Source: Sphingomonas quercus (GTDB lineage Bacteria > Pseudomonadota > Alphaproteobacteria > Sphingomonadales > Sphingomonadaceae). Taken from it: a stretch of DNA of 64,000 bases. Positions 43,599-60,897 of this stretch are shown here, piece after piece. Position numbers and translations under genes: made by a program. The notes under the pieces are model-generated. The model made no database searches. It was not told the origin of the DNA and saw nothing but the letters and a program-made list of their open reading frames with translations. Within the stretch, counting starts at the first letter, position 1. Each line of letters starts with the position of its first letter. The stretch lies in assembly GCF_018863195.1 (NCBI RefSeq), contig NZ_JAHKRT010000002.1, positions 434,001 to 498,000 of the forward strand, given 5' to 3'.

Positions 43599-46500
43599 AT
43601 GGCCGTGGAAATCTCCGTTTACGTCGACCCTGCCCGCGATAGTGGCGAAGTGCCTGAAGGCGCGCCTGTTACGGTGCAGCGGCTCTTAGACGTGGGTGAC
43701 ACCATCACGGTGACACAGGTCGGCCCGGACGGCACGGCACTCGTGCGCATCAATCCGCTCGGCGACGAAGCGGTCACGCTTGCGTTCGCTGGCGCGCTCA
43801 CCGAAACGTTCGAAGGGCTGGAGTATCGCAGGCTGCCGATCAACGGCACGCTGACCTTGGCCGATCCGTGGGATTCGACGCCGATCCTGCAGACGCAGGC
43901 GCGCTTCGATCGCGACGAAGCCTATGATCGGCATCTTACGGGTGTGCCGGCCGTGTTCGACCGCGGTGTCGTCGTCAGCGAATGGTATGCCGACGACGTT
44001 CCCACGGGCCTCGATCTCACGATTAACGGTAATGACTTCGCCGGCAAGATGCTGAAATATATCTCGATCTGCACGTCCGGTTCACATGAGCTGGTGTCGG
44101 AGAGCGAGGGCGAACTGATCCCGGGGCAGGGCACCTGCATCATCGATGATGATTTCAACGGCGCGCCGAACGGCACGCTTGTCAGCGACGACAACAGCGA
44201 CAAGGGGGCTTGGGTCGGTGAGGGCGGCCCGACGACCATGGTGCTCATCGCCGACACCTATGCCACGCCACCCTCAGGCGTCACCGCCAATTCCCTTGCC
44301 GAGATCGACGTTGGCGAGACCGATGTTATGGCAGACTTTGGGTACGGTGACCTTCAGGGCAGCGGCGGTAGCCTGATCATGCTCCTATGCTACGATCGCG
44401 CCGAGAAAAATGCCGTACGTGTCGCTGTCACCCTCAACAACGCACAGAACCGCGTCGAGGTCTCCTTCTTCACATATAAGAAGGGTGCGCAAATTGGTGT
44501 TAACAAGTACACGTTCCTGCACATTCCACAGCCTGGCGACATCCTTCGCCTGAAGCTGCAGAACAGTCAGCTCACCGTCTATAAGAAATACGTCACCACT
44601 GACGGCGACACCAGCTATAGGCGAATGAATATCGGCAACTATCAAGCCAGCGGGTATAGCAATGAAGGTGCCGGCGTCATCGACATCAGCGCCTCGCCCT
44701 GGGACTATGCCAGGGGCACTTGGTTCTACTGGACCGTCTCCGGCACTACAGCCAACACTCACCGCATGGACCGCGTCACCGTCTGGGCGCTGAGCGGCTC
44801 GGGTTTTAATATCGCGTCGGTCGAAGACGGTGAGACTGTCGTCGGCCTGCCGACGCGCTCGCAAGGCCACACCCTGAAGATCAACGGCGTCTATGACGGC
44901 AGCGCGCCAACCAGCCTTGACGTGGAGGTTACGCAGAGCACCACGGTCGTGCTGGATCGTCGTCCGGCAAGCATCACGCAGGCCGAAGACGGCACCTGGA
45001 GTGCCACGGTGCAGAGCCTGGATCTTTTGGGGCTGGACGCGACCAAGGACCATGCGGTGAGAATCTGGAAAGACGGGGCTGGCAATCCCGCCACCCTCAG
45101 CTTCCGGCCCACCATTTATGCCGAGCTGCAGCCTCACCATCCGGCTCAGCAGAAGAACAGCGAGACCTACTGGGAGGGCACCGACAGCTATCGCGACCTC
45201 GGTCCCAAACTCTTCTGGCTCACCTTCTACCCCGGCAGCAACCAAGACACTCCGCTGCACCCGGCTGATCAGAGTGCCGATCCGGTGGCGGAAGGCGCCG
45301 TCGGCCTCGATGGCGTTGTTCACACCTACCCTGGAGGCGGCACCACGAGCAGCCGCCTAAGGGCAATCCTGCCCTATAGCCGGGGTGCTGGTCGCTACGG
45401 CACTGGCGTGAAGTGGGTCGTCAAGGGCTGGCCTGCTGGCATGACGGCCGGCATCGGAGGCAACGCCAACGACTACACCATCGTCCCCGGTGCTCCGGCC
45501 GGTGAGATCTGGTTCAACTTCCCCCGCGCCGAGAACACGGACACGGGCAACAAGATCGTCTACCTTGAATTTGCGGGCAACCTTCCCGCCGAGGGCTTCG
45601 ACACGCGTGCGATCAGCGTCGCGCCCGAGGGGAGCGGCACCGACTTCTGCACGCCTGTCGAGCATCAGATGAAGGCTGGCATCAAGGGCATGCGGTTCAT
45701 GCAGGCCGACGACATCAATTCTGTGAACGTCATTCCTGGTGGCCGGGTTGATCCCTGGTTCGGTACGAATCAGAACGGCTTCGGGCTGGACACCAAAATC
45801 GAGCACTGCAACGCGCTTGGCTGCGACCTCTGGTTCAATATCCCCCGAGACGCCAAGAACGAGTGGATCACGACTGCCGCCACCTTTATCAGGGACAATC
45901 TAAACTCCGGCCTCAAGGTCTGGCCGCAGTACGCTAATGAAACCTGGAATGTCGCCGGTGGTGGCTTCGTCCGCACGAACTGGTACACAGCAATCAGGGG
46001 TATCGAGCGCGGCCTTGTGGCCCCGTCAGCAACCACCTTCGCGGATGCAGAGCCACTGGGATTCAACATCACTATTCCTGAAGTTGACGTTTGGGTGGTG
46101 CCCTATCGCATCAGCGACCTGCGCATCATTGCGAACCCGCTGGCCGCCTACAACATCTTCCCGATCAATTTCGACCTTCCGGAGTTTGAGGATTTCCGGA
46201 GCTTGAATGGCGGCACCCTCACGGGCGTGCATTTTGTGCAGAACATGACGGTGTTACGCTCTGCGGATGGCAGCAACAACCCAAGCTACCTCACGCCGGG
46301 GATGCTGCGCTATGTCCGGCCTGCGACGGGTGAGGATCTCGCCAAGTGGTGCCCCTTCGATAATTACCTGAGGGCATGGCAGTCGATCGAGTCCGACTAT
46401 CACTTCCACTCGGCCGGTGCGGCGGACGTGTGGGGCATGGGCGATTATAAGATCATCGTCACAGAGAAGGATATCTCCGCCGGCGATACTCTCAGCCTCG

Positions 46501-47381
46501 ATAACTGCGGCGTCTATCTTATTCCCTCCTATATAGTCGCTAGCGACCGGTATACGACGGTGAGGGAGGCTGAAATCCACGACATATTCACAGACGTGTT
46601 TGGCGGCCACGAGCGCCTCAATCGTGTTAAAGGCTGGTGGTGGGCTGCCGCTTCCAGCATTATAAACCCCAATAGCCTCGCTAATGTTCTCGCCTGGTAT
46701 GGGGACACGAGCAAGTTCGATTATTACGCCTGCGCTCCTTATTGGGGCAATGATCCCCTGGGCTACCTCTACATGGGCATCACGACGCCGTATGATAGGC
46801 CGGGCGGCTGGGCCCTCGATAGCGGCAAGCAGTTCTATCCGGGGTGGGGCCTCACGACAAAGGCGCTGGTCGATAGCGATCAGGCGGCGTGGCTGAATTT
46901 CAGCATCTACGGCAACACGGCAGGCACCGGCTCGAATTTGGATGGCCCATGGCCGCTGTCGATGAAGGCCACCGTCTACGCCATCGGTTCAGCGGCGCAT
47001 AGGAATGAGCGCGCCTTCCGCTCTATCGTTCCTGGCTACGTTCCCAACTCGATCAAGTTTTGCAGCTACGAGTGCGGCATGGGTACCGGCATGATGCTGG
47101 ATCACGACTCAGGTTATGCGGAGGAGAACAGCGCATCAGATAATGCAACGGCCGCCTATGAGGCTTTGCTGAACCACCCTGCAATGCGCGACTGGACGTA
47201 TGGCTATTATGCCGGCATCAGGGATGTACTCGGCGGCGCCCATTTCCAGTTCGTGGATCTGCGCGGCAGCGTCACGGAGGTCGGGACGCAATATCTGCGC
47301 TACGGCCTAGGCAACAACGTACATGATACCGGCTCGCCCGCTTTGCTGGGCTGGCTCGAGGCTGCGGCGCTCCCGGAATAG
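43599..47381 (+). CDS. Large multidomain glycoside-hydrolase-like protein of unknown role
   Basis: This 1260-residue protein starts at an ATG preceded by GAAGGA. It has no signal peptide or membrane helix. Residues ~1-170 are beta-rich and unrecognised. About 183-395 looks like a concanavalin-A-like lectin/LamG jelly roll (DDDFNGAPNGTL ... MDRVTVWAL). About 405-500 looks Ig-like. About 600-1260 resembles a TIM-barrel glycosidase family: GMRFMQADDINSVN, then EHCNALGCDLWFNIPRDA, then LKVWPQYANETWN near residue 776, where the NE..WN motif places a likely catalytic Glu. Codon choice is noticeably less GC-biased than the neighbours, which suggests transfer. A phage tail/adhesin role or an intracellular or phage-released carbohydrase are both possible. 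No activity can be assigned. Confidence 0.75.
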   Translation: MAVEISVYVDPARDSGEVPEGAPVTVQRLLDVGDTITVTQVGPDGTALVRINPLGDEAVTLAFAGALTETFEGLEYRRLPINGTLTLADPWDSTPILQTQARFDRDEAYDRHLTGVPAVFDRGVVVSEWYADDVPTGLDLTINGNDFAGKMLKYISICTSGSHELVSESEGELIPGQGTCIIDDDFNGAPNGTLVSDDNSDKGAWVGEGGPTTMVLIADTYATPPSGVTANSLAEIDVGETDVMADFGYGDLQGSGGSLIMLLCYDRAEKNAVRVAVTLNNAQNRVEVSFFTYKKGAQIGVNKYTFLHIPQPGDILRLKLQNSQLTVYKKYVTTDGDTSYRRMNIGNYQASGYSNEGAGVIDISASPWDYARGTWFYWTVSGTTANTHRMDRVTVWALSGSGFNIASVEDGETVVGLPTRSQGHTLKINGVYDGSAPTSLDVEVTQSTTVVLDRRPASITQAEDGTWSATVQSLDLLGLDATKDHAVRIWKDGAGNPATLSFRPTIYAELQPHHPAQQKNSETYWEGTDSYRDLGPKLFWLTFYPGSNQDTPLHPADQSADPVAEGAVGLDGVVHTYPGGGTTSSRLRAILPYSRGAGRYGTGVKWVVKGWPAGMTAGIGGNANDYTIVPGAPAGEIWFNFPRAENTDTGNKIVYLEFAGNLPAEGFDTRAISVAPEGSGTDFCTPVEHQMKAGIKGMRFMQADDINSVNVIPGGRVDPWFGTNQNGFGLDTKIEHCNALGCDLWFNIPRDAKNEWITTAATFIRDNLNSGLKVWPQYANETWNVAGGGFVRTNWYTAIRGIERGLVAPSATTFADAEPLGFNITIPEVDVWVVPYRISDLRIIANPLAAYNIFPINFDLPEFEDFRSLNGGTLTGVHFVQNMTVLRSADGSNNPSYLTPGMLRYVRPATGEDLAKWCPFDNYLRAWQSIESDYHFHSAGAADVWGMGDYKIIVTEKDISAGDTLSLDNCGVYLIPSYIVASDRYTTVREAEIHDIFTDVFGGHERLNRVKGWWWAAASSIINPNSLANVLAWYGDTSKFDYYACAPYWGNDPLGYLYMGITTPYDRPGGWALDSGKQFYPGWGLTTKALVDSDQAAWLNFSIYGNTAGTGSNLDGPWPLSMKATVYAIGSAAHRNERAFRSIVPGYVPNSIKFCSYECGMGTGMMLDHDSGYAEENSASDNATAAYEALLNHPAMRDWTYGYYAGIRDVLGGAHFQFVDLRGSVTEVGTQYLRYGLGNNVHDTGSPALLGWLEAAALPE

Positions 47382-48574: not shown

Positions 48575-49408
48575 ATGTCGGACGATGTGCAGTCCCGCGC
48601 GGACGATATCGACCTGTCCGGCAGAGAGCGGCAGGACGCTTACGAACAGCAGTTGATGAGCGCGCGGGTCCTTCACGAAGTGATCCGCCGATCCGGCGAC
48701 GAGGAGCTGGACCGGCCCGCCCTCTCGCTCTTGTGGTCCGGACTGGCGGGCGGCGTCGCGATCAGTGCATCGCTCATGGGACAGGCGCTCATCGAAAGCA
48801 GGCTCCCCGATGCGCCCTGGCGGCCACTGGTGGCGAGTTTCGGTTATACGCTCGGCTTCCTGATCGTGATCCTGGGCCGTCTCCAGCTCTTTACCGAGAG
48901 CACGCTGTCGGCGGTCATACCGGTGGCGACGCATCTCAGCCTCGCCAATGTCCGCCGCATGCTCCGCCTGTGGAGTCTGGTACTCTGCTTCAATCTGATC
49001 GGAACGCTGCTCATCGCCACGGCGACGGGCCTGTCGCTGATCGGGTCGGTGGAGCAGCGCGCAGCCATGCTCGAGGTCTCCCGCAAGCTCATTGAGCATG
49101 ATTGGCTCGAGACCCTGAAACTCGGGGTCCCGGCTGGTTTCCTGATCGCCGCGGTGCCGTGGATCATGCCCGTCGCCAGGGGGCAGGGCTTCTGGGTGGT
49201 GCTGGCGCTCACCTACAGCATCGCGCTCGGCGGCTTCGCGCATGTCGTGGCCGGTTCGGGCGAGGCTTGGCTGCTGGCGGTCTGCGGGGAGACGAGCTTC
49301 GCGCACGCCGCCTTCGGGCTGATCCTGCCTGCGCTTCTCGGCAACATCATTGGCGGGACCGGGCTGTTCGCTCTTCTCGCCCATGCCCAGGTACGCCAGG
49401 AGCTCTAG
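48575..49408 (+). CDS. Formate/nitrite transporter (FNT) family protein, YfdC-like
   Basis: This 277-residue inner-membrane protein starts at the ATG at 48575, behind GGAG. It has a charged N-terminal tail, then six or so hydrophobic helices. The FNT-type LLWSGLAGGVAISASLMGQA, the family loop LQLFTESTLSAVIPV and the SIALGGFAHVVAGSGEAW region are recognisable. FNT channels pass formate, nitrite or related small anions; this subgroup (YfdC) has no settled substrate. It converges on the alcohol-oxidation operon, ending 31 bases from that operon's last gene. A role with formate made by one-carbon oxidation is an inference only. Confidence 0.85.
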   Translation: MSDDVQSRADDIDLSGRERQDAYEQQLMSARVLHEVIRRSGDEELDRPALSLLWSGLAGGVAISASLMGQALIESRLPDAPWRPLVASFGYTLGFLIVILGRLQLFTESTLSAVIPVATHLSLANVRRMLRLWSLVLCFNLIGTLLIATATGLSLIGSVEQRAAMLEVSRKLIEHDWLETLKLGVPAGFLIAAVPWIMPVARGQGFWVVLALTYSIALGGFAHVVAGSGEAWLLAVCGETSFAHAAFGLILPALLGNIIGGTGLFALLAHAQVRQEL

Positions 49409-49439
49409 CGACGCGCGCCCGCGCCCTTACGGACGGCTG

Positions 49440-50249
49440 CTATCGCGCGACGAGGGGCACGCCGTAGCGCCGTAGCAACCTTTCGATCTCGGCCCGGCGT
49501 CGCTCCAGGATCGCGTCGACGCGGCGCAGGAGCACCGTATCGTCCCTCCGCGCCGCTACCGAGATGTCAAACACCATCGGCAGCTGCGGGCCGTCGAACA
49601 GCGGCGAAACGGGGCTGATCGCCACCCGCTCGGGATGGCGCAGCCGGTAATAGCCCGCCACCGGTCCCCAGACATAGGCGATGTCGAGTTTGCCGCTCGT
49701 CAACGCATCGAGGATCGCGTCCTGCGGGTAGGCGCGGCGATAATCCCCCTGGACCATGAACCCGCGTACGTTCCGGACGATGCCGCGGCGTGTCAGGGCA
49801 TGTGCGGGCGGGGTGTTGATGCCGTCGTCGCCGATCAGCTGCACCCCGATGCGCAGGTGCCGCAACCGGGGGTCATCGAACGAGCGCGGGACGGGGGAGC
49901 TCCCATGCCGCCGCGCCACGACCACATAGCTTGACCGGTAATAGGGCGTGCTCGTTGCCACCGCCTCCAGCGTGCTGCCGACGCCCGGCACCAGATCGCA
50001 CTGCCCGGCGCGCAGCGTCTCACGCAGATTGCCGCGGCGCTGCGCCCACCAGACGTAGCGAAGCTCCGCGTTCATGTCGCGGGCGATCAGCCGGACAAGG
50101 GCGTTCTCGAAACCCTGTTCCGCCCGGTTCGAAAAGGGCATGTTGTTGGGATCGGCGCAGACGCGCAGCACTGCGCGTGCCGGCGCCGCGGCGGCGGGCA
50201 TGCACGCGCCGACGGACGCGAGGAGCACGCAGGCCCGAACAACCCTCAT
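49440..50249 (-). CDS. Quinoprotein-associated periplasmic substrate-binding protein (MoxJ-like)
   Basis: This 269-residue protein has a signal sequence (VVRACVLLASVGACMPAAAA) and an SBP-fold body. Motifs of the 'quinoprotein dehydrogenase-associated ABC transporter substrate-binding protein' group (TIGR03871-like) are visible: VLRVCADPNNMPFSNRAEQG, LRYVWWAQRRGNLRETLRAG and RIGVQLIGDDGINTPPAHAL. No transporter genes accompany it, and MoxJ relatives support assembly of PQQ dehydrogenases. It overlaps the beta-propeller gene by 4 bases and is the last gene of the operon. Confidence 0.88.
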   Translation of the reverse strand: MRVVRACVLLASVGACMPAAAAPARAVLRVCADPNNMPFSNRAEQGFENALVRLIARDMNAELRYVWWAQRRGNLRETLRAGQCDLVPGVGSTLEAVATSTPYYRSSYVVVARRHGSSPVPRSFDDPRLRHLRIGVQLIGDDGINTPPAHALTRRGIVRNVRGFMVQGDYRRAYPQDAILDALTSGKLDIAYVWGPVAGYYRLRHPERVAISPVSPLFDGPQLPMVFDISVAARRDDTVLLRRVDAILERRRAEIERLLRRYGVPLVAR

Positions 50250-51220
50250 CGCGCCACCACGCCCCAGGGCCTGCCGCCGAGCCGGATCGTGCCCGCCGGC
50301 CGGTTCTGCACCAGATCGACGACGCTCATGTCGCCGCTGAGCCCGTTGGCGGTGTAGAGGCGCCGGCCATCCGGCGAGAGAGCCAGGTTCCAGGCCCGCC
50401 ACCCGACCGGGAACGTCCGCACCAGGGCCAGCGTCCGCGGATCGAGTTCGGCGACGAGCCTGGCCCGGCCCAGCGCCACGAAGGCGCGGTCGCCGCCGCG
50501 CGTGAAGGCGATCGCTACGGCCTGCAGCTTGTTCTCCGATGGCCGCTCGCCGGGGATTGCGCTGTTGAAGTCGATCCGGCCGACGGGGCGGCGGGTGGCA
50601 GTGTCGAAGGCGGTTACCGTCGCGCGAACCTCCGAGGAAACCCAGAAGCGCCGCCCACCGGGTTCGAAGGCGACGAAGCGTGGACGAGTGTCGACGATCA
50701 GATTGTCGATCACGGCGGCCGTGCGGGCATCGATGACATGGGCCATGCTCGCCGTCTCGGAGGTCTGCACGACGAGGCGGCCATCCGGGCTCGCCGCGGT
50801 CCCTTCCGGCTCACCGCCGACCGGCACCTTCGCCACCAGCCTGCCGGCCGCGATGTCGACGATGGAAAGCAGATTATCGTCCTCGTTCGCCACATAGAGG
50901 CGGCTGCCGTCGGGCGAAAGGGTGATCGTCTCGGGGTCCGGCCCGCTCGGCAGCGCCGGCAGGACGCGGTTCTGGTCGAGGTCGATGACATCCACGCGGC
51001 TGTCGCCGCCGCTCGCCACGTAGAGGCGCCGCCTGTCCGGCGAGAGCACCATGCCCCTTGGCCGGCGGCCGACCGCGATGTCCATCCGCAGCGCGAGGGC
51101 GGCGGCGTCGATGACATGGACCACGTTCGATGCCTCATCCGACACATAGATCGCCGGGCCGGTCGAGGGCGCGGCGTGGCAGGCGGAGAGCGCGAGCAGC
51201 GCCAGCGTGATCCGCCTCAT
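50246..51220 (-). CDS. PQQ-associated YVTN beta-propeller lipoprotein
   Basis: This 324-residue protein has a lipobox (LLALSAC) followed by repeating YVTN-type blades: AIYVSDEASNVVHVIDAAAL, RLYVASGGDSRVDVIDLD, RLYVANEDDNLLSIVDIA and RLYTANGLSGDMSVVDLV. It matches the 'PQQ-dependent catabolism-associated beta-propeller' group. Members occur beside quinoprotein dehydrogenases and their role is unknown. The 4-base overlaps on both sides place it inside the operon. Confidence 0.88.
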   Translation of the reverse strand: MRRITLALLALSACHAAPSTGPAIYVSDEASNVVHVIDAAALALRMDIAVGRRPRGMVLSPDRRRLYVASGGDSRVDVIDLDQNRVLPALPSGPDPETITLSPDGSRLYVANEDDNLLSIVDIAAGRLVAKVPVGGEPEGTAASPDGRLVVQTSETASMAHVIDARTAAVIDNLIVDTRPRFVAFEPGGRRFWVSSEVRATVTAFDTATRRPVGRIDFNSAIPGERPSENKLQAVAIAFTRGGDRAFVALGRARLVAELDPRTLALVRTFPVGWRAWNLALSPDGRRLYTANGLSGDMSVVDLVQNRPAGTIRLGGRPWGVVAR

Positions 51221-51630
51221 GTCTGGGTGTAGAGGAAGGCTGACAGGTCGCGCGCCTGATCGGGGCGCACGCCCAGGCGCGGCATGGCAGTGCCCGGCGT
51301 GATCGCCTGCGGGTCGATGATCCAGCGCTGGAGGTTGTCCGGGTTGTTGGCGAGCTTGCCGGCGATGATCGCGCGGGCACCGATCGTGTCGAGCGGCGGG
51401 CCGACCATGCCCTGCGCCTGCGGCACACCGCTCGCGGCGTGGCATGCCCCGCAGCCGAAGGCCGCAAACAGCTTCGCGCCTCGCTGGGCGTCGCCGCCGG
51501 TGATTGCCTCGGCCCGTTGGCGCAGCTGCGTCTGCTCGTGCCGATATTCGAACGTCACGCCACCCGCAGCAGCGGCGACGAGCGCCGTCACCACGGCCAG
51601 CGCGATCCGGCTATTCCGCCGAAACGGCAT
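51217..51630 (-). CDS. Membrane-anchored c-type cytochrome
   Basis: This 137-residue protein has an N-terminal hydrophobic segment (IALAVVTALVAAAAGGVTF) that would anchor or export it. Heme is attached covalently at FGCGACHAASG (CxxCH), and the sixth ligand is the Met in PGTAMPRLGV. It would carry electrons in the periplasm, probably between the dehydrogenase and the oxidase. It overlaps ctaG by 20 bases. Confidence 0.92.
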   Translation of the reverse strand: MPFRRNSRIALAVVTALVAAAAGGVTFEYRHEQTQLRQRAEAITGGDAQRGAKLFAAFGCGACHAASGVPQAQGMVGPPLDTIGARAIIAGKLANNPDNLQRWIIDPQAITPGTAMPRLGVRPDQARDLSAFLYTQT

Positions 51631-52507
51631 GGCGTTCCTCCCCAGGCTTCAACCAACGGTACAGGATGACCAATGCCGCGCCCATGTGGACGATCCCGCC
51701 CGGTATCCACATGATCAGGCCGGCCAGCTGCTGGTCTTCCTCGGGCGTGAGGCCGAGCGGCGTCATCCCCATTGCTGCATAGCCTGCATACCAGGGGCTG
51801 GAGGAGAGGGCCATCAGTCCCCCCAGCGCCGCGCCGACGCAGGCGGTGATAAGCAGGCAGAAGGCGGCGACGCCGGCGCTGCCGCGCGCGTCCGCTCGCG
51901 CGATCGTCCACCAGAAGAGCAGCGAGGTGACGATGAAGCTGAGATGCTGCGCGACATGCCACCCCTCGCTCGCCAACGCGCGATCGAACAGCGCCGGGGC
52001 GTGCCATAGCCACAGCGCAGCGGCCTGCAGGGCGGTGGCGACCCACGGCGAGGACAGGGCCCCCCAGCCGGCCGCAATCGACCGCGCATGGACCAGCCTT
52101 CCGAATGCCCGGCGCGCGGCCGCGGGCAGACCCCACAGAAGCATCGACCCCGCGCCCGCGGTGGCGAGCAGCAACGTGGCGACGAGCATGATGAGCTCAT
52201 GCTCGATCATGTGAACGGTGAAGGAGCGTTCCCCCGCCTCGTGCAAAGGCGATACCAGCGACGCTGTCAGCACGAGCCAGCCGAGGCCAAACAGCAGCGC
52301 GTCGCGTCGCATCGCCCTGCGCCCGCGTCGCGCCCGTGCCCAGAGCCGCGCAAAGCCCACTCCATAGAGCAGCAGCGTGATCGCGAGCGGCAGCGTCACC
52401 GATGGCGCCAGGGTCCAGCCGGGCGCCTCGGCATGATCGTGCCCGGCATGGGCAAGCGCTGCCTCCGGCAGCAGCAGGAGGCACAGCATCGCCTTTGCCC
52501 GCCTCAT
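51611..52507 (-). CDS. ctaG: Cytochrome c oxidase assembly factor, caa3_CtaG type
   Basis: This 298-residue protein has about seven hydrophobic helices. The family-defining segments are FTVHMIEHELIMLVATLLLA and LWLWHAPALFDRALASEGWH. A His-rich stretch just after the signal (HAGHDHAEAP) could bind copper. CtaG of the Gram-positive/caa3 type is needed for formation of active caa3 oxidase. The start is the ATG at 52507, overlapping the preceding gene's stop. Confidence 0.9.
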   Translation of the reverse strand: MRRAKAMLCLLLLPEAALAHAGHDHAEAPGWTLAPSVTLPLAITLLLYGVGFARLWARARRGRRAMRRDALLFGLGWLVLTASLVSPLHEAGERSFTVHMIEHELIMLVATLLLATAGAGSMLLWGLPAAARRAFGRLVHARSIAAGWGALSSPWVATALQAAALWLWHAPALFDRALASEGWHVAQHLSFIVTSLLFWWTIARADARGSAGVAAFCLLITACVGAALGGLMALSSSPWYAGYAAMGMTPLGLTPEEDQQLAGLIMWIPGGIVHMGAALVILYRWLKPGEERHAVSAE

Positions 52508-52824
52508 GACAGGCAGCCCGGCACCAGCAGGCCGGCGATGGTCTGCATGAGGATCGGGAACGCCAGCAGCAAGGCAAGGAGCATGCTCAGGAGCGCGACG
52601 AACTGCCATCCGTCCTGCTCCGTGCGTCCGTCCTGCCAGCGGCGGTAGGAGAGCATGGCGCCGGCCGCGACCAGCGCCAGGCCCGCCGCCCCGAGCAGCG
52701 CGACGCTCCACCAGTGCCCCCTCGTGCACTGGGCGAAGATCATGCCGGAACCCGCCTGCTGGCTCAGATACCAGCCGGCGACCCCGCCGATCAGGCCGGC
52801 CCAGGGCTGAAGGATGCGCCGCAT
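52504..52824 (-). CDS. Small membrane protein of the oxidase cluster
   Basis: This 106-residue protein has three hydrophobic segments (QPWAGLIGGVAGWYLSQQ, SVALLGAAGLALVAAGAML and LLSMLLALLLAFPILMQ). The start ATG at 52824 shares one base with the coxC stop (TGATG). An ATG at 52836 is also possible. Position between coxC and ctaG points to a small accessory subunit or assembly protein; I cannot name a family. Confidence 0.75.
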   Translation of the reverse strand: MRRILQPWAGLIGGVAGWYLSQQAGSGMIFAQCTRGHWWSVALLGAAGLALVAAGAMLSYRRWQDGRTEQDGWQFVALLSMLLALLLAFPILMQTIAGLLVPGCLS

Positions 52825-53456
52825 CACGGAAGCCATCGCGGCACCCAGTAGATGAGCAGGTAGATCAACAGCCAGGAGAGCCAGACGAACCGCCAGTAAA
52901 GCGCGTTCTCGCTGGTATCGACGAAGCGATTGGCTTCCTTGCCATGCTCCGTGAACATCAGCGCGGTGAGGACGAGAGTGTCGCCCCAATCCGTCACCAG
53001 GTGGGTGGTGTGCAGGAAGAGCAGCAGCCACATCACGGAGCCATAGGCATTGTCCGTCCAGCTCACGTTGAGTGACGCGAACTCGAAGCCGCGCAGCACG
53101 AACAGCGGGATCACGGCCGCCGACATCACCACCAGCCCCTTGCGCACCGTCGCCAGATCGTAGCGCTCCGCGGCACGCTTGATCCAGCTGTTGGGGATTT
53201 CGGTCAGCAGGATCAGGATGGTGAGGAGCGAGCCGGCGAGCAGGTCCGGCGGGGCCAGCGGTGCCGGCGGCCAGGTCTGCTCCTTGTCGAGGATGAAGAA
53301 ATAGGCCGCGAAGGAGAGCGCAAAGAACATCCCCTCCACCACCATGAAGCCGATGATGCCCCACCAGGTGATGCTGCGGTGGCCGAAGCCATGGGTCGGC
53401 AGCGCGGCAAGGTCGCCTTCGAAGCGTACGCCGTCGGCCATGCTGCGCCCGCTCAT
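52824..53456 (-). CDS. Cytochrome c oxidase subunit III
   Basis: This 210-residue protein has five or so transmembrane helices, a short form of subunit III. Family segments include GIIGFMVVEGMFFALSFAAY, LLLFLHTTHLVTDWGDTL and the C-terminal YWRFVWLSWLLIYLLIYWVP. Subunit III stabilises the catalytic core and guards proton uptake to the active site. The ATG at 53456 overlaps the coxA stop. Confidence 0.92.
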   Translation of the reverse strand: MSGRSMADGVRFEGDLAALPTHGFGHRSITWWGIIGFMVVEGMFFALSFAAYFFILDKEQTWPPAPLAPPDLLAGSLLTILILLTEIPNSWIKRAAERYDLATVRKGLVVMSAAVIPLFVLRGFEFASLNVSWTDNAYGSVMWLLLFLHTTHLVTDWGDTLVLTALMFTEHGKEANRFVDTSENALYWRFVWLSWLLIYLLIYWVPRWLP

Positions 53457-55360
53457 TCGATCACCGGTTCTGCTGTGGGCGAGCCCTTTGGCCAAAACCA
53501 GGCGAGGAAGGCCACGCCGAGCGGCGCCAGACCGATCACCACCGCCCACGGGGTGAAGATCGAGCCGATGAACAAGGCCGCCAGCGCGATCGCCGAGAGG
53601 AGCGGCCAGATGGTCCCCTCGGGCGAAGGGTAGCGTATGTCCGGCCGTGCATCGATCGCGGTGGTGATGAGCAGTTCGCGATCGTCGACGCGCAGCCCCG
53701 TCATCACCGGCAGCGGACCCTGCTCCCAGAGCGGCGTCGCGCTCCGCACGACCGGCACGTGGGGGAAGTTATAGGGTGGCGGCGGCGATGCCGCTGCCCA
53801 TTCCAGGCTGGCGGCGTTCCACGGATTGGGGGCCGCGTCCCGAGGCCGCCTCAGCGTCAGCGCGACATTGGCGAGGAAGACGAGCCCGCCCAGCACGATC
53901 ACCCCGACGCCGATGCTGGACAGCATGTTGAGGCCGTCCCACCCCATGTTCGCCGGATAGGTATAGACGCGCCGTGGCATCCCCAGCATCCCCGTGATGT
54001 GCATCGGGAAGAAGGCGATGTTGAAGCCCAGAAAGATCAGCCAGAAGGCGAGCTTCCCCAGCCCTTCCGAGAGCATGCGGCCGCTGAATTTGGGAAACCA
54101 ATAAGTGAGCGCGCCGAGCAGCGGGAAGACGGCGCCGCCGACCAGCACATAATGGAAGTGCGCGACCACGAAATAGGTGTCGTGGAATTGCAGGTCTAGC
54201 GGCACGCTTGCCACCATCACACCCGACAAGCCGCCGATGACGAACGTCACGATGAACGCGATGACATAGAGGAACGGCGTCGCATAGCGCGGCTTGCCCA
54301 GCCACATGGTGGCGATCCAGCAGAAGATCTGGATCGAGGCGGGGATCGCAACCGCCATCGTCGCCGCCGTGTAGAAGTCATAGCCGAGCCGCGGCAGCCC
54401 GGTCGCGAACATGTGATGGACCCACACGCCGAAACTCAGGAAACCGGTGGCGACCACCGCCAGCACCATCGCGGGATAGGCGATGACGGGGCGGCCGGTG
54501 AAGGTCTCGACGATCTGGCTGACGAAGCCGGTTGCGGGCAGGAAGATGATGTACACCTCCGGATGCGCGAAGAACCAGAACAGGTGTTGCCACAGCAGCG
54601 GATCGCCATGCTCGAAGGGGTTGAAGAACTGCGTCCCGATCAGCCGGTCCGCGATCAGCATGCCCGAGCAGAGCGCCACCGCCGGCAGCGAGAGGATGAT
54701 CATGATCGAGGTGACCAGGATCGCCCAGGCGTAAAGCGGCATCCTGTTCAGGCTCATGCCGGGAGCGCGAAACTTGAGGATGGTGGCAGTCAGCTCGATG
54801 GCCACGGCAAGCCCGGCCACTTCCGTGAAGGTGATCATCTGCGCCCATATGTCGGTGCGCTTGCCGGGTGAGAATTGTGGGCCGGAGAGCGGCGTGTACA
54901 TGAACCAGCCGGCATCAGGGCCGACATTGAGCACGAAGCCCACCCACAGCAGCAGCGCGCCGAACAGATAGGTCCAGTAGCTGAACGCGTTGAGGCGCGG
55001 GAAGGCGATGTTGCGCGTGCCCATCATCAGCGGGATGACGTAGATCGCCGCCGCCTCCATCACCGGCACGGCGAAGAGGAACATCATCGTCGTGCCATGC
55101 ATGGTGAAAATCTGGTTGTAGCGAGCCGGACTGATCAGCCCGCTTTCCGGTCGCGCCAGCTGGAGCCGCATCGCCACCGACAGGATGCTGCCCAGGATCA
55201 GGAAGGTCATCGCCGTGTAGATGTAGCGGCGCCCGATATCCTTGTGGTCGACGGTGGTCAGCCACCCCCACAGGCCGGGGGCGGGGCGCCAGGTCCGGTC
55301 CAGCCGCCCCTCGAGCTCGGCGCCCTTCAGCGCCTCTCCGTCGCGGGCGATCCCGGTCAC
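53453..55360 (-). CDS. Cytochrome c oxidase subunit I (caa3-type, heme-copper)
   Basis: This 635-residue protein starts at a GTG at 55360 that overlaps the coxB stop. It has twelve core helices plus C-terminal ones. The redox site is intact: heme a His in FTMHGTTMMFLF; the CuB His and cross-linked Tyr in FWFFAHPEVYIIFLP; the CuB HH pair in VWVHHMFATGLP; and the heme ligands in FHDTYFVVAHFHYVL. Two usual proton-channel residues appear changed: RNIAFPRLN has Asn where D-channel proteins have Asp, and IPASIQIFCW has Gln where the K-channel Lys is expected. The E of HPEVY is kept. Confidence 0.95.
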   Translation of the reverse strand: MTGIARDGEALKGAELEGRLDRTWRPAPGLWGWLTTVDHKDIGRRYIYTAMTFLILGSILSVAMRLQLARPESGLISPARYNQIFTMHGTTMMFLFAVPVMEAAAIYVIPLMMGTRNIAFPRLNAFSYWTYLFGALLLWVGFVLNVGPDAGWFMYTPLSGPQFSPGKRTDIWAQMITFTEVAGLAVAIELTATILKFRAPGMSLNRMPLYAWAILVTSIMIILSLPAVALCSGMLIADRLIGTQFFNPFEHGDPLLWQHLFWFFAHPEVYIIFLPATGFVSQIVETFTGRPVIAYPAMVLAVVATGFLSFGVWVHHMFATGLPRLGYDFYTAATMAVAIPASIQIFCWIATMWLGKPRYATPFLYVIAFIVTFVIGGLSGVMVASVPLDLQFHDTYFVVAHFHYVLVGGAVFPLLGALTYWFPKFSGRMLSEGLGKLAFWLIFLGFNIAFFPMHITGMLGMPRRVYTYPANMGWDGLNMLSSIGVGVIVLGGLVFLANVALTLRRPRDAAPNPWNAASLEWAAASPPPPYNFPHVPVVRSATPLWEQGPLPVMTGLRVDDRELLITTAIDARPDIRYPSPEGTIWPLLSAIALAALFIGSIFTPWAVVIGLAPLGVAFLAWFWPKGSPTAEPVIE

Positions 55361-56349
55361 TTCAGACCCTGCAGATAGGCGACGACGGCATGCAGCTTTG
55401 CGGAGTCGAAGCCGATATAGGGCATGTTGTTGCCGGGCTTCACCCCCTGCGGGTCGGCGATCCAGGCGTAAAGATGTCCGCGTGTCATCGGCAATGTCCC
55501 TGCGGCGATCGAGCGCCGGCTGGCGAGGTGGGTGAGATCGGGTCCGAAGCGGGCGGACGCGGGCGTGCCGGCGATCGCGTGGCAGCTCGCGCATTGCTGC
55601 GACATCACCAGGTCATGGCCGGCCTGCGCCAGAGGGGTGGACGGGGGCGCGGCGGGGGCAAGCTGCGCCTGCTGCCAGCGCCTGAACGAGGCGACCGGCT
55701 CGACCGTCACGTCGAGCGCCATATGGGCGTGCTGCGTGCCGCAGAATTCGGCGCATTGGCCGCGGAATTGACCGGTCCGGGTCGGCAGGAGCAGCAGATC
55801 GTTGACGCGGCCGGGAATGAGGTCCTGCTTGCCGGCGAGCGACGGGATCCAGAAGCTGTGGATCACATCATTGGACTTGAGCGTGACCTTCACCGGCACG
55901 CCGACGGGCAGGTGCAGCTCGTTGGCCGTGCGCAGTTCATTGGCCGGCACCGCGTTCTTGTAGGTGATGTCCCACCACCATTGGTTGGCGGTGATCTGCA
56001 CCTCGAGCGGCGGGCGCGCCGGGATCGCCGCGGAGACGCGCCGCTCGCTCGCATAGCTGCCGACTGTCAGCACCGTGAGGCCGAGCACGACCGCAGCGAT
56101 CCAGCCGAGCAGGGCGGTGCGCGCGAGGCGCTCGCCACGCTCCGTTCCGGCGGCCCGTCCGCGTATCGCGATGCCGGCGAGCATGCCGACGATGACGAGC
56201 ACATAGAAGAAGCCGGTGATGCCCATGAACAGCGTGAACAGCCGGTTGAACTGCTCGCCCTGGAGGCCGCCGCCACCGGTCATGGACTGGGTGCCGCCGC
56301 ACCCGGCAAGAAGGCCGGCAAGGCACAGGCCGGCGGGAAGGCGTGTCAC
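55357..56349 (-). CDS. Cytochrome c oxidase subunit II with fused cytochrome c domain
   Basis: This 330-residue lipoprotein (LAGLLAGC) has two membrane helices, then the cupredoxin domain with the CuA ligands (VIHSFWIPSLAGKQDLIPGR and GQCAEFCGTQHAHM). A C-terminal cytochrome c domain follows, with heme site QQCASCHAIAG and axial Met in GNNMPYIGF. This is the caa3 architecture, in which subunit II carries its own cytochrome c. The start is a GTG at 56349 overlapping the preceding gene's stop. Confidence 0.95.
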   Translation of the reverse strand: MTRLPAGLCLAGLLAGCGGTQSMTGGGGLQGEQFNRLFTLFMGITGFFYVLVIVGMLAGIAIRGRAAGTERGERLARTALLGWIAAVVLGLTVLTVGSYASERRVSAAIPARPPLEVQITANQWWWDITYKNAVPANELRTANELHLPVGVPVKVTLKSNDVIHSFWIPSLAGKQDLIPGRVNDLLLLPTRTGQFRGQCAEFCGTQHAHMALDVTVEPVASFRRWQQAQLAPAAPPSTPLAQAGHDLVMSQQCASCHAIAGTPASARFGPDLTHLASRRSIAAGTLPMTRGHLYAWIADPQGVKPGNNMPYIGFDSAKLHAVVAYLQGLK

Positions 56350-56909
56350 CGGCTGGTGCCCTGCACGCCAGCCGGCGAGGAGGGCACCACCGGCTGCCGG
56401 CTCTGCAGCGTCGCCGGCTCCGTGCTGCTCGGTGCGTCGGGGCGGCTGGACAGCACGTCCTGCCGCGGCTGTGCCGAGAGCGAGCGTACATAGGCGGCCA
56501 GCTGCCACATCTGCTGCTCGGTAAGCTTGCCGCGCCAGGAGGGCATGCCGTTCGGCCGGCCCTGATCGATCGTGGCGACGATCTCCTCCATGCTGCCGCC
56601 ATAGCGCCACTCGGCGTCCGAAAGCGCCGGTCCCATGCCGCCACCGCCATGGGCGTGGCAGCCCGAGCAGTTCATCTTCTGATAGAGGAGCTGGCCCTGT
56701 GACATCTGGTAGCTGTTATTCTCATAGGCCCTGGCGCGCGGGTCGGCGGCAGTCCTGGCGGGCACGCCCGGCTGGAGGATGCTCTGCCGGGGGGTCGGCA
56801 GCGTCTCGGGGACGGGCTGGGCACGGCTTTGCCGTTCCTCGCGGTCACACGCGGAGAGCAGCGCAAGCGCGGCGAGGGCGGCCAGCCTAGCGCGACAGCG
56901 AGAAGACAT
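56346..56909 (-). CDS. c-type cytochrome lipoprotein
   Basis: This 187-residue protein has a lipobox (ALALLSAC) and a cytochrome c core with YQKMNCSGCHAHGGGGMGPA (CxxCH) and axial Met in PNGMPSWRGKLT. The C-terminus is Pro/Ser-rich and likely flexible. Position directly after the dehydrogenase gene (23-base overlap) makes it the probable first electron acceptor from PQQ. The ATG at 56909 has a GAGGAA site upstream. The longer frame upstream runs antisense-like through the dehydrogenase and is not used. Confidence 0.9.
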   Translation of the reverse strand: MSSRCRARLAALAALALLSACDREERQSRAQPVPETLPTPRQSILQPGVPARTAADPRARAYENNSYQMSQGQLLYQKMNCSGCHAHGGGGMGPALSDAEWRYGGSMEEIVATIDQGRPNGMPSWRGKLTEQQMWQLAAYVRSLSAQPRQDVLSSRPDAPSSTEPATLQSRQPVVPSSPAGVQGTSR

Positions 56910-58767
56910 AGAGCATTCCTCCCGCGGTGGTCTTCTGCGGCAGATCGGCCATCGCCACGCCCCAGCCGTTCGCGGCGGTCGCGTCCGCGGTGTTGAGATT
57001 GTTGCTGACGATCGCGCCGGGCCAGCCGCCCACGCCGGCAAGCACGGCGACATATTGGTGCCCGTCAGGGCCGCGATAGCTGATTGGCTGGCCGATGATC
57101 CCGGAGCCCGTCTTGAACTGCCAGAGAAGCTTTCCGCTGCGTTGATCAACGGCCTTGAACCATCCATCCATGGTTCCGTAGAAGACGAGCCCGCCGGCGG
57201 TGGTGAGCGCGCCGCTCCACACCGGCAGGTCTTCCTTGATCTCCCAGACGGGCCGTCCACGGACCGGATCCCAGGCGGTGAACACGCCGCGATTGCCGCC
57301 GGGACCAGCGTAATATTTGACGTCGGCGCCGACATAGGGCGTGCCGGCGATGTAGCTCGCCTCATAGCTTCCCCAGTCCATGCAAAGGTTATTGTGCGGG
57401 ATGTAGACGAGGCCGGTGAGCGGGCTGAACGCGGCCGGGTTCCAGTCCTTCATGCCCGGCGCCGACGGGCAGATGCCGCGCACGACCTGCCCCTCCCTGG
57501 GCTCCATGGCGGGGTTGGGGATCAGCCGGCCGCTCTTGAGGTCGACGCCCTTATAGGCGGTGACATGGCCGAACGGGGTCGCCGACAGCACCTCGCCCGT
57601 GCCCCTGTCCATCACGTAGAAATAGCCGTTGCGCTCCGGCCGGACCATCACCTCGCGCATGCGGCCCTTGACTGGCATGTCGAGCAGGATCTGCTCGTTG
57701 ACACTGTCATGGTCGAACAGGTCGTGGGGCGACGTCTGATAATACCAGCGTGCCGCCCCGGTATCGATGTCGCGCGCGAAGACGCCGGTGGTAAACTTGT
57801 TGTCGCCGGGGCGCTGCTCCGGATTCCACGGGCCGGGATTGCCTGTGCCGTAGAAGACGAGCCGGGTCTTCGGGTCGTAGCTCACCCAGCCCCAGGCATT
57901 GCCGCCGCCCTGCTTCCAGGCTTCGGGCGGCCAGGTCGTGACACCCAGATCGCGACCGCGATCCATCGCGTAGAAGGGGTGGTAGCCGTTGCCGATCAAC
58001 ACATCCTTGTCGGGCCCGGTGGCATAGGCGCGCCAGGCGATCTTGCCGCTGTCCGCGTCGAGCGCGGCGAGCCAGCCACGCACGCCGAGTTCGCCGCCGG
58101 AATTGCCGACGATCACCTTCCCCTCCGCGACGAGCGGCGCCATCGTCATCGTTTCGCCGAGGTTGATTTCGCCGAGCTTGGTCTGCCACAATTCCTTGCC
58201 GGTCGCCGCGTCCAGCGCGATGGTGCGGTTGTCGAGGGTGTTGAAGAAGATGCGGCCATTGGCATAGGCCGCGCCGCGATTGACGACGTCGCAGCATGCG
58301 ACACCCTGCGCCGCCGAGAGCGGCCTCGGCTTGTACGTCCATTTGGTCGGCGCCCCGGGCTTGGTGAGGTCGAGCGCATAGACGTTGTTGGGGAAGGGCG
58401 CGACGATGTACATCGTGCCACCGACCACCAGCGGGGCGGCCTCATGCCCCTTGGCCACGCCGGTCGAGAAGGTGAACGCGACCTTCAGCCGGCTGACATT
58501 GGCGGTATTGATTTCAGTGGCGGTGGAGAAGCGCGTGCTGGCGAAGTTCTTCGCCGCCATCGTCCATTGGCCGTCATCGCCGTCTCCCACCGATCGGGCG
58601 GTGACGGCGCCGCTGCTGCCAGCATAGGGGGTGAGGGGAGCCTGTGCCACAGGCTGCGGTGCCCGGGAGCGCACGACGATGATCGCGATCGCTGAAATCA
58701 CCAGCAGCGCAGCTGCTGCGGCGAGCATGGCGACCAGTCGCTGCTTCTTCAATTCGGCTGCCCTCAC
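56887..58767 (-). CDS. Membrane-tethered PQQ-dependent alcohol dehydrogenase
   Basis: This 626-residue quinoprotein resembles the methanol/ethanol dehydrogenase group. The N-terminus has a basic start and one hydrophobic helix (ALLVISAIAIIVV) that may stay as an anchor. The eight-bladed propeller then follows. The vicinal disulfide Cys pair that touches PQQ is in GVACCDVVNRG. The metal site is visible: Glu in GNSGGELGVRG and Asn in GGGNAWGWVSYDP. The catalytic Asp is the D of SYDPK; the residue two positions later is Lys rather than the Asp of lanthanide (XoxF/ExaF) enzymes, so calcium is expected. It would oxidise a primary alcohol; the substrate is not defined. Confidence 0.92.
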   Translation of the reverse strand: MRAAELKKQRLVAMLAAAAALLVISAIAIIVVRSRAPQPVAQAPLTPYAGSSGAVTARSVGDGDDGQWTMAAKNFASTRFSTATEINTANVSRLKVAFTFSTGVAKGHEAAPLVVGGTMYIVAPFPNNVYALDLTKPGAPTKWTYKPRPLSAAQGVACCDVVNRGAAYANGRIFFNTLDNRTIALDAATGKELWQTKLGEINLGETMTMAPLVAEGKVIVGNSGGELGVRGWLAALDADSGKIAWRAYATGPDKDVLIGNGYHPFYAMDRGRDLGVTTWPPEAWKQGGGNAWGWVSYDPKTRLVFYGTGNPGPWNPEQRPGDNKFTTGVFARDIDTGAARWYYQTSPHDLFDHDSVNEQILLDMPVKGRMREVMVRPERNGYFYVMDRGTGEVLSATPFGHVTAYKGVDLKSGRLIPNPAMEPREGQVVRGICPSAPGMKDWNPAAFSPLTGLVYIPHNNLCMDWGSYEASYIAGTPYVGADVKYYAGPGGNRGVFTAWDPVRGRPVWEIKEDLPVWSGALTTAGGLVFYGTMDGWFKAVDQRSGKLLWQFKTGSGIIGQPISYRGPDGHQYVAVLAGVGGWPGAIVSNNLNTADATAANGWGVAMADLPQKTTAGGMLYVFSLSR

Positions 58768-58804
58768 CCTTCAGCTTATTTTTTCTGCCCAAAATGCCGT
58801 TCTC

Positions 58805-58921
58805 TCACCCCACCCAGCTCTCCCCAAAGGCATAAGCGAGGGTGGCGAAAGCTCCGATCAGGACGAAGGCGGCGGCGACCTTTTCGATCGATCGCAGACG
58901 GCGGCCGGTCACATCGTTCAT
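58805..58921 (-). CDS. 38-residue single-span membrane peptide
   Basis: An ATG at 58921, ten bases after a clear GGGAG ribosome-binding site, opens a 38-codon frame ending at a TGA at 58805-58807. The peptide is MNDVTGRRLRSIEKV (basic head), then AAAFVLIGAFATLAYAFG (one hydrophobic helix), then a short tail. It sits 37 bases upstream of the dehydrogenase start in the same direction, so it is likely the first cistron. It is not PqqA-like (no E-x3-Y). A role as a small oxidase or dehydrogenase subunit is only an inference. Confidence 0.6.
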   Translation of the reverse strand: MNDVTGRRLRSIEKVAAAFVLIGAFATLAYAFGESWVG

Positions 58922-59124: not shown

Positions 59125-60897
59125 TCAGGCCGCCGCGCTCGCCCGCGGATGGGACGATGTCAGCCACGCCCCAAAGGCGTCTGCGCTCATCGGCCGGCCG
59201 TAGAGGTAACCCTGTCCCTCCTGGCAGCCGATCTGTCTCAATGCGATTGCAGCCTCCGCCGTCTCTATCCCCTCGGCCACGACACGGAATCCCAGACGGT
59301 GGGAAAGGCTGACCATCGACTCGACCAGCACATGGTCCGGACTGGCCCCTGCGGTGAGGTTCTTCACGAAGGCCTGGTCGATCTTGACAATCTTCACCGG
59401 CAGGCGCTGCAGATAGGCGAGGCTGCTGTGGCCCGTCCCGAAATCGTCGATCGCCAGCGACACGCCCGCCCCGGCGAGCGCGTTCAGAATGCCGAGTGCC
59501 TGCTCCGGCTGCTCCATCATCGCGCTTTCGGTGAGCTCCAGCTCGAGACGCTCCGCCGGCAGGTTGCGCTTCAGCAGGCCGAGCTGGACACGCTGAACGA
59601 GATCATTCTCGGTGAGGTTGGCGGCGGACAGGTTGAGCGACAGGTTCAGCGCCAGCCCGGCCCGATGCCATTCGGCGAGCTGGTCGAGCGCAATGTCCAG
59701 CACGCGTTGCGTGGCCGCCCGGGCTAGCGAGGTCTGCTCGATCACCGGGATGAATTCGCCGGGGGAAACGTCGCCCAATAAGGGGTGCCGCCAGCGCAGC
59801 AGCGCCTCCGCGCCGACGCAGCGTCCGGTCGCCAGGTCGATGCGCGGCTGATAGACCATGCGAAGCTGGTCCGCGGCCTCCAGCGCTGCGCTGAAGTCAC
59901 GCAGCAACCCGTATTGACGGCGATGCGCCTCGTCCTTGGCCGGCGAATAGACCGCAATGCCATTGGCCATTTCGCGCGCCTCATGGGCGGCGCTCGCAGC
60001 GCCGCGCAGCACGTCCTCGCCCGGCACCTCCCCCAGCTTGAAGGGCCGGACGCCGAGTGCGGCATTGGTGGCGAAGCGGCTCGCCGAAGTGGCGCGCAGC
60101 CGCTCCAGCGACGCCTGCAGCGATCGCAGATCGGGATCGCTATCGGGACAGCGGGGCGACAGGAAGGCGAATTGCGCCGGTCCGACATGATAGGTCTCGC
60201 GGCCCGTGCCGAGTTCCGCCCGCAGCGCGCGCGCGGCATCGCGGATCAGCTCTTCAACCCGGCCCCCGCCCAGCGCCCGGGCGATGCGGCTGATCTGTTC
60301 GCCGCGGGCGAAATCGACGACGATGGCGAAGCGCTGCTCACCGGGATTGTCGCGGGCGAGATCGCTGAGGTCGTCGAGGAACTGGTTGCGCGTCGGCAAC
60401 CCGCTGATCGGGTCAATGCGGCCGAAGGCATGCTGCAGTTCGATCTGCGCCATGACCATGGCAGCAAGATCGACCAGAGCCATCATCTCGGCCGCCGACG
60501 CCTGCCGCGGCTCGGTGCCCAGCACGCACAGCGCGCCAAGGCCATGGCCTTCGCGCGTGATCAGCGGAGCGCCCGCGTAGAAGCGGGTCCCGGCGCGGGC
60601 CAGCACGCTCTCGGCATAGCAAGGGTCGGCGAGCAGATCGTCGACCACCAGCGGCACCGCCGATTCGGCGACGGCCGCGCAGGGCGCCCTGTCCCTCGGA
60701 ATGCTCCAATGATCAACGCCGACGCGGGATTTGAACCATTGCCGATCCTGGTCGGTCAGGGAAACCGCCGCGATCGGCAGCCCGAAAATCTGGCTGGCCA
60801 TCCGCGTGATGCGATCGAAGCTTTCGCTCGGCGGCGTGTCGAGCAGCTTGAGCTGATGGAGCGCATCCAGCCGCGCCGCCTCACGATGATTGTCCAC
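59125..60897 (-). CDS. GAF / degenerate GGDEF / EAL cyclic-di-GMP protein
   Basis: This 590-residue cytoplasmic protein has three domains. An N-terminal GAF domain (~1-155) has DQDRQWFKSRVGVDHWSIPR. A GGDEF-fold domain (~155-320) has the catalytic motif replaced by HVGPAQF, so it should not make c-di-GMP. The C-terminal EAL domain (~335-580) is intact: GAEALLRWRHP, LELTESAMME, SLAIDDFGTGHSSLAYLQ and VVAEGIET. It is predicted to hydrolyse c-di-GMP, with the GAF domain sensing a ligand or redox state. It is upstream of, and separate from, the alcohol-oxidation operon. Confidence 0.93.
   Translation of the reverse strand: MDNHREAARLDALHQLKLLDTPPSESFDRITRMASQIFGLPIAAVSLTDQDRQWFKSRVGVDHWSIPRDRAPCAAVAESAVPLVVDDLLADPCYAESVLARAGTRFYAGAPLITREGHGLGALCVLGTEPRQASAAEMMALVDLAAMVMAQIELQHAFGRIDPISGLPTRNQFLDDLSDLARDNPGEQRFAIVVDFARGEQISRIARALGGGRVEELIRDAARALRAELGTGRETYHVGPAQFAFLSPRCPDSDPDLRSLQASLERLRATSASRFATNAALGVRPFKLGEVPGEDVLRGAASAAHEAREMANGIAVYSPAKDEAHRRQYGLLRDFSAALEAADQLRMVYQPRIDLATGRCVGAEALLRWRHPLLGDVSPGEFIPVIEQTSLARAATQRVLDIALDQLAEWHRAGLALNLSLNLSAANLTENDLVQRVQLGLLKRNLPAERLELELTESAMMEQPEQALGILNALAGAGVSLAIDDFGTGHSSLAYLQRLPVKIVKIDQAFVKNLTAGASPDHVLVESMVSLSHRLGFRVVAEGIETAEAAIALRQIGCQEGQGYLYGRPMSADAFGAWLTSSHPRASAAA

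Follow-up and report, generated by a model that had tools for sequence, protein, structure and literature searches.

How do electrons taken from an alcohol reach oxygen when a dehydrogenase and a terminal oxidase are encoded side by side, and does such an oxidase pump protons? The question is raised by a 64,000-nucleotide stretch of the Sphingomonas quercus genome (contig NZ_JAHKRT010000002.1, positions 434,001 to 498,000; "the window"), where eleven co-directional genes, each translating without internal stops, lie on the minus strand at 49440-58921. Read from 58921 to 49440, they encode a 38-amino-acid transmembrane (TM) peptide, the pyrroloquinoline quinone (PQQ) dehydrogenase XoxF, an XoxG-like cytochrome, the oxidase subunits CoxB, CoxA and CoxC, a 110-amino-acid membrane protein, CtaG, a small cytochrome c, a beta-propeller and an XoxJ-like binding protein. 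It is quite probable that these genes make up a sphingomonad's methanol-oxidation cluster of the XoxF3 type, dependent on a lanthanide and PQQ and passing its electrons to an oxidase of its own, which may pump few or no protons. The original prediction, a short note made from the letters of the window, had placed dehydrogenase and oxidase in one operon; it overlooked an oxidase without the K-channel lysine and the D-channel entrance residues, and a second XoxF cluster in the same genome.

Proton-channel residues of the oxidase

CoxA was compared in an alignment of 65 oxidases of the window type (59 linked to an XoxF-like gene, six not), 11 of a second type (W-type, see below) and 32 canonical ones (31 genomic sequences and 1ar1). 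Residues are numbered as in Paracoccus and the channels defined as in PMC3084760, where the K-channel comprises Lys354, Thr351, Ser291 and Tyr280, and the D-channel Asp124, Asn113, Asn131, Asn199, Tyr35, Ser134, Ser193 and Glu278. In the window CoxA, Lys354 is replaced by Gln and Thr351 by Ala, with Ser291 and Tyr280 kept; in the D-channel Asp124 has become Asn, Asn113 Ile, Ser193 Gly and Asn199 Glu, with Asn131, Tyr35, Ser134 and Glu278 kept, and the canonical A1 residue set is thus incomplete in both channels. The changes at 354, 124, 113, 193 and 199 set the protein apart from the family A1 caa3/aa3 oxidases of Paracoccus (1ar1) and Rhodobacter (1m56), with which it shares the haem and CuB ligands, Glu278, Tyr280, CuA and subunits I-III. 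The label "caa3 oxidase", given to it in the original prediction, suits the caa3-like CoxB with its cytochrome c tail; it does not hold in the sense of the canonical proton-pumping type, the channel residues being lost.

The same losses run through the relatives. Gln stands for Lys354 in 65 of 65 window-type oxidases, although this residue was used to sort the rows and so partly defines the set, and Lys is found in no linked oxidase of the clade. Position 124 is acidic in four of the 59 XoxF-linked members and in all six unlinked ones (Fisher p 2.5e-6 for loss of Asp124 against XoxF linkage, a value that overstates independence, as it reflects mostly one ancestral association). Asp124, Glu278 and Lys354 are all retained in the 32 canonical controls. 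The His ligands of haem and CuB, together with Tyr280 and Glu278, are retained in the window CoxA and in 65 of 65 relatives, as is the propionate Arg pair with the exception of one gap. Because these ligands and residues are kept and the channel residues lost, the oxidase looks, as judged from its sequence, catalytically intact yet devoid of the cytoplasmic proton inlets known so far. PMC8079940 assigns every pumped proton of family A to the D-channel, which is why weak or no pumping is expected here, and methanol may be oxidised without proton pumping by the oxidase. Independent K-channel losses have been described in archaeal family A oxidases (PMC8239418); no account of XoxF-linked oxidases having lost the K- or D-channel was found in the open-licence literature, and one may exist elsewhere.

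The chain could nevertheless be an ordinary energy-conserving one, a coupled methanol respiration module whose oxidase still pumps through an unrecognised N-side path, for example via Glu189 (at the Asn199 position) or Gln344 and waters. Such a path would be in keeping with Glu278 and Tyr280 in all members, with Ser291 in 60 of 65 and Glu at the Asn199 position in 31 of 65, and with the retention of Asp124 by related oxidases without XoxF. It has to contend with the universal exchange of Lys354 for Gln, the loss of Asn113 in 65 of 65 and of Ser193 in 63 of 65, the lack of an acidic residue at 124 in 55 of the 59 linked oxidases, and the assignment of pumped protons to the D-channel cited above; a chain of this kind is possible, though doubtful.

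At loci L131, L133-L136 and L138, oxidases with Gln for Lys354 keep Asp124 and have no XoxF nearby. Their open frame at L133-L136 and L138 is 819-895 amino acids, long enough for a fused subunit I+III.

The dehydrogenase

The structure in the PDB closest to the dehydrogenase is 4mae, the XoxF2 of Methylacidiphilum (654 bits), and ethanol dehydrogenases score at most 330 bits. The window XoxF carries the lanthanide Asp two residues past the catalytic Asp (FDHDSVNE), along with the Cys-Cys, Glu and Asn residues of the metal/PQQ site. MxaF has Ala at the position of the lanthanide Asp, which is retained in 65 of 67 oxidase-linked XoxF. In a tree of 93 rows the window protein falls into an 84-row clade with acidobacterial, gemmatimonadotal and proteobacterial XoxF, apart from the XoxF1, XoxF2, XoxF5 and MxaF references (Shimodaira-Hasegawa-like approximate likelihood ratio test, SH-aLRT, 97); with the Methylacidiphilum enzyme it has its site residues in common, and its clade is separate. 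The enzyme is, from these features, a probable lanthanide-type methanol dehydrogenase of the XoxF type. It had been assigned to an "alcohol" route, which is correct as to a PQQ dehydrogenase, whereas the Asp pair and the XoxF clade make methanol, oxidised by a lanthanide-type enzyme, the narrower first guess. The family name spans methanol and ethanol enzymes and several alcohols can be used by XoxF enzymes, so a general, ethanol-type quinoprotein might be considered; with the Asp pair present and a gap of 654 to 330 bits in the structure matches, this is improbable.

At L129 (8390-13566, genome G373), the same oxidase type is linked to an XoxF-like protein (49% identical) whose metal-site motif fails to align, the residues at its place being degenerate (FALGSAEP). 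The protein may be a quinoprotein that is inactive or lacks PQQ, or the motif may be an end effect of the alignment. The N-terminus of XoxF was considered as a conserved membrane anchor and rejected, since relatives have signal peptides or lipoboxes with no shared rule.

Conservation of the cluster and its relation to the XoxF3 system

For the layout survey one genome per species was scanned, and the eleven window proteins were mapped onto 80 named loci. These fall in the Alpha-, Beta- and Gammaproteobacteria, Acidobacteriota, Gemmatimonadota and Myxococcota and have the same gene set, with XoxJ in either of two placements. Most of the gene order recurs in the 80 loci, far beyond chance. Where the flanks of XoxF extend over at least 8 kb on the upstream and 7 kb on the downstream side (46 loci), CoxA lies beside XoxF in 45, covering at least four phyla. 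Among 99 genomes of close relatives, XoxF at this level occurs in two, a patchy distribution.

The XoxF3 system of Acidobacteria and Gemmatimonadetes was described by Voutsinos et al. 2024 (PMC10875860), who credit Keltjens et al. 2014 with the observation that xoxF3 operons contain cox and ctaG. In common with that system, the window has XoxF with the lanthanide Asp, XoxG, XoxJ, CoxI-III, CtaG, CytC and a YncE-like propeller, and a protein of about 110 amino acids between CoxIII and CtaG. Because the gene content matches, the operon is, by sequence, an XoxF3-type cluster whose layout has already been published. It differs in that XoxJ and the propeller come last, whereas XoxJ follows XoxF immediately in most Acidobacteria, and in having no NRAMP gene. 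Proton-channel loss in the oxidase is not mentioned in the sections of PMC10875860 drawn on here.

The claim that dehydrogenase and oxidase together are unusual has to be given up, clusters of xoxF3 with cox, ctaG, cytc, xoxG and xoxJ being on record there. The dedicated route from dehydrogenase to oxygen that had been proposed is strongly supported by the order conserved across phyla; the supercomplex also raised there is a conjecture. As to the two halves being unlinked in other genomes, the XoxF side is linked in 45 of 46 loci; on the oxidase side, related oxidases do occur without XoxF.

A second XoxF-linked oxidase

The oxidase tree has three separate clades, made up of the XoxF-linked window-type oxidases (59 rows, SH-aLRT 96), of the second type (SH-aLRT 100) and of the canonical oxidases (likewise 100). 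Three changes are required on this tree for residue 354 and four for the presence or absence of Asp124. The second type is represented in the same genome, on contig C15 (about 143.8-152.5 kb; L109 13827-19998 and L110 1-2537), by a cluster that comprises another XoxF (66% identical), an XoxG-like cytochrome, a propeller and XoxJ and has cox genes on its upstream side. Its CoxA has kept Asp124, while Glu278 is replaced by Trp and Lys354 by Ala; throughout the W-type clade, position 354 is Ala or Gly and Trp stands at Glu278. The W-type clusters (C15, Sphingomonas, Caulobacteraceae) are likewise linked to XoxF of the same larger clade and lack Lys354, but differ from the first type in keeping the D-channel entrance, in the exchange of Glu278 for Trp, and in having the cox genes upstream of xoxF. 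The K-channel lysine is thus missing from both XoxF-linked oxidase types. Since, in the XoxF tree, the XoxF of W-type clusters nest among XoxF linked to the first oxidase type, the partner oxidase seems to have been swapped.

Proton uptake and the proposed electron route

By the established topology, helix IV would begin at the periplasmic side. In this helix the window CoxA has a new Glu (residue 180; Gly190 in Paracoccus) that is invariant in 65 of 65 window-type oxidases; all 32 canonical and all 11 W-type oxidases carry Gly there. The helix also opens with a series of conserved residues that are polar or basic. The residue suggests an uncoupled safety valve, in which the chemical protons would come from the periplasm via Glu180, so that methanol oxidation and O2 reduction would cancel on the same side and electrons be disposed of fast, with no gain in gradient. 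The second XoxF-linked clade, also without Lys354 and with Trp for Glu278, would fit such a valve. Glu180 is, however, shared by the six unlinked members and hence not specific to the XoxF chain; a valve of this kind is rather unlikely. Loss of proton channels is also typical of nitric oxide (NO) reductases, and an oxidase-like enzyme that reduces NO or another substrate in place of O2 was considered, but with Tyr280, all His ligands, the CuA motif and CtaG present this is most improbable, although no search aimed at the glutamates of the NO reductase motifs (PMC3084760) was made.

In the route favoured here, XoxF, with PQQ and (from the Asp pair) a lanthanide, would oxidise periplasmic methanol and perhaps other small alcohols. 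The XoxG-like cytochrome, the likely first acceptor, would hand the electrons, either directly or by way of the second small cytochrome, to CoxB, whose cytochrome c domain and CuA would relay them to CoxA; there they would travel over haem a to the haem a3-CuB centre and reduce O2. XoxJ and the beta-propeller would serve maturation or docking of the dehydrogenase, and CtaG, probably with the Cys-pair membrane protein, assembly of the oxidase. Proton pumping by the oxidase would be weak or absent, and the protons used in the chemistry would have to reach it along a non-canonical path. The sequences themselves establish the gene content and its conserved order, the redox and metal-site residues, the losses in both channels and the phylogeny, and the electron route from methanol dehydrogenase to O2 is well supported; the methanol substrate, lanthanide use, carrier order, loss of pumping and periplasmic proton uptake are what we infer.

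Several points weigh against this reading. Loss of residues falls short of proving loss of pumping, and an alternative inlet is possible. In Phenylobacterium deserti (L036), XoxF, propeller and XoxJ occur with no oxidase within 10 kb. The canonical aa3 oxidase on contig C10 of this genome, which has another oxidase on C15, could take the methanol electrons. The XoxF tree has named references for XoxF1, XoxF2, XoxF5 and MxaF, none of them labelled XoxF3 or XoxF4. XoxF3-based systems have, according to PMC10875860, yet to be studied experimentally, so that substrate and metal are inferred from comparison. A wider proposal, in which XoxF3 methanol oxidation in at least four phyla is wired to a dedicated clade of oxidases whose O2 reduction draws no protons through the D- or K-channel, with periplasmic protons entering via the helix IV Glu, would leave the chain with no electrical output, as a short circuit serving detoxification or redox balance whose oxidase was swapped in some proteobacteria for a second K-less one; offered tentatively, it is unlikely.

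Gene inventory and neighbouring genes

The features are collected in Table 1. Ten or eleven same-strand genes, mostly with 4-nt overlaps, had been counted, and eleven were found, with such overlaps at six junctions (XoxG/CoxB, CoxB/CoxA, CoxA/CoxC, small TM/CtaG, cytc/beta-propeller and beta-propeller/XoxJ), longer ones at three (23, 13 and 20 nt) and a 37-nt gap between the 38-amino-acid open reading frame (ORF) and the dehydrogenase. NCBIfam and Pfam bore out the families named beforehand (PQQ dehydrogenase, CoxB/A/C, CtaG, beta-propeller and MoxJ-like solute-binding protein), and the three cytochrome c domains were located by CxxCH in the XoxG-like protein, the CoxB tail and the separate small cytochrome. 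The CuA motif CAEFCGTQHAHM of CoxB is intact, and its TIGR02866 score is slightly below the cut-off (142.8 against 147.7). The 38-amino-acid ORF was rejected as a general part of the cluster, since L029, the closest relative, is the only locus with a counterpart ahead of xoxF.

Table 1. Features of the operon and its convergent neighbour (positions in the window)
Feature	Position	Strand	Evidence
38-aa (amino-acid) single-TM ORF, first gene	58805..58921	-	no Pfam or NCBIfam match
Probable XoxF-type (XoxF3-like) PQQ methanol dehydrogenase, 626 aa	56887..58767	-	TIGR03075, 622.8 bits (cut-off 480.05); 4mae; tree, site residues
XoxG-like cytochrome c lipoprotein, lipobox LLSAC, one CxxCH	56346..56909	-	PF13442; TIGR03872 cytochrome c(L) weak, under cut-off
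CoxB, subunit II: CuA site, C-terminal cytochrome c domain (caa3-like), N-terminal lipobox	55357..56349	-	PF00116, PF00034, CuA motif
CoxA, oxidase subunit I	53453..55360	-	TIGR02891 (over cut-off), PF00115
CoxC, oxidase subunit III	52824..53456	-	PF00510
110-aa three-helix membrane protein, between CoxC and CtaG	52504..52836	-	homologues, structure model, PMC10875860
CtaG, caa3-type, probable CuB assembly factor	51611..52507	-	PF09678, 168 bits
Small cytochrome c, hydrophobic N-terminal anchor	51217..51630	-	PF00034, CxxCH
PQQ-catabolism-associated beta-propeller (YncE-like)	50246..51220	-	TIGR03866, 335.5 bits (cut-off 287.3)
XoxJ/MoxJ-like periplasmic binding protein	49440..50249	-	TIGR03871, 253.3 bits (cut-off 212.15)
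Formate/nitrite-transporter-family (FNT) gene, convergent neighbour	48575..49408	+	TIGR00790, under cut-off

The 110-amino-acid protein is modelled as three helices (predicted local distance difference test, pLDDT, 90), and both C37 and C108 are kept in 54 of 54 homologues. The Cys pair is probably on one side of the membrane, and the protein is a candidate disulphide or copper-handling subunit by its sequence. Its model had no match in the PDB at E <= 0.001 and no fold family was assigned. The label "vesicle-mediated transport", published for a protein of about 110 amino acids in the XoxF3 cluster (PMC10875860), probably reflects a match to a generic helix bundle; GGA GAT domains, which are among the weak matches of the model, may explain it.

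The interval first proposed, 48575-58921, includes the operon and, at its lower end, the plus-strand FNT gene, which lies outside the operon, 31 bp from the end of xoxJ. FNT homologues recur in seven XoxF3 loci of Acidobacteriota and Gemmatimonadota (L060, L061, L066, L068, L072, L107 and the edge of L099) and are possibly linked to formate from methanol. About 200 bp upstream of the operon, on the same strand, lies a GAF-GGDEF-EAL-like signalling gene (59125-60897). Both neighbours were rejected as parts of the operon, as they are not conserved with the cluster, the recurrence of FNT in seven loci notwithstanding. A 1260-amino-acid ORF lies at 43599-47381 on the plus strand.

Metabolic setting and significance

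PQQ synthesis genes are absent from the window, as had been noted, and pqqC is found elsewhere in the genome. Fae was searched for in the genome and is absent, while a glutathione-dependent formaldehyde dehydrogenase and a formate-dehydrogenase-like protein (under its family cut-off) are present; with this combination, methanol carbon would most likely leave as formate and CO2 via the glutathione route, which does not imply growth on methanol.

In the metagenomes of weathered granite and soil studied in PMC10875860, no clade of methanol dehydrogenases was commoner than XoxF3. If the oxidase is non-pumping, the energy yield of methanol oxidation in these organisms would be below what models assume. 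As a natural variant, the oxidase would also help to decide whether family A enzymes truly require the K- and D-channels to reduce O2, an issue addressed up to now mostly through laboratory mutants.

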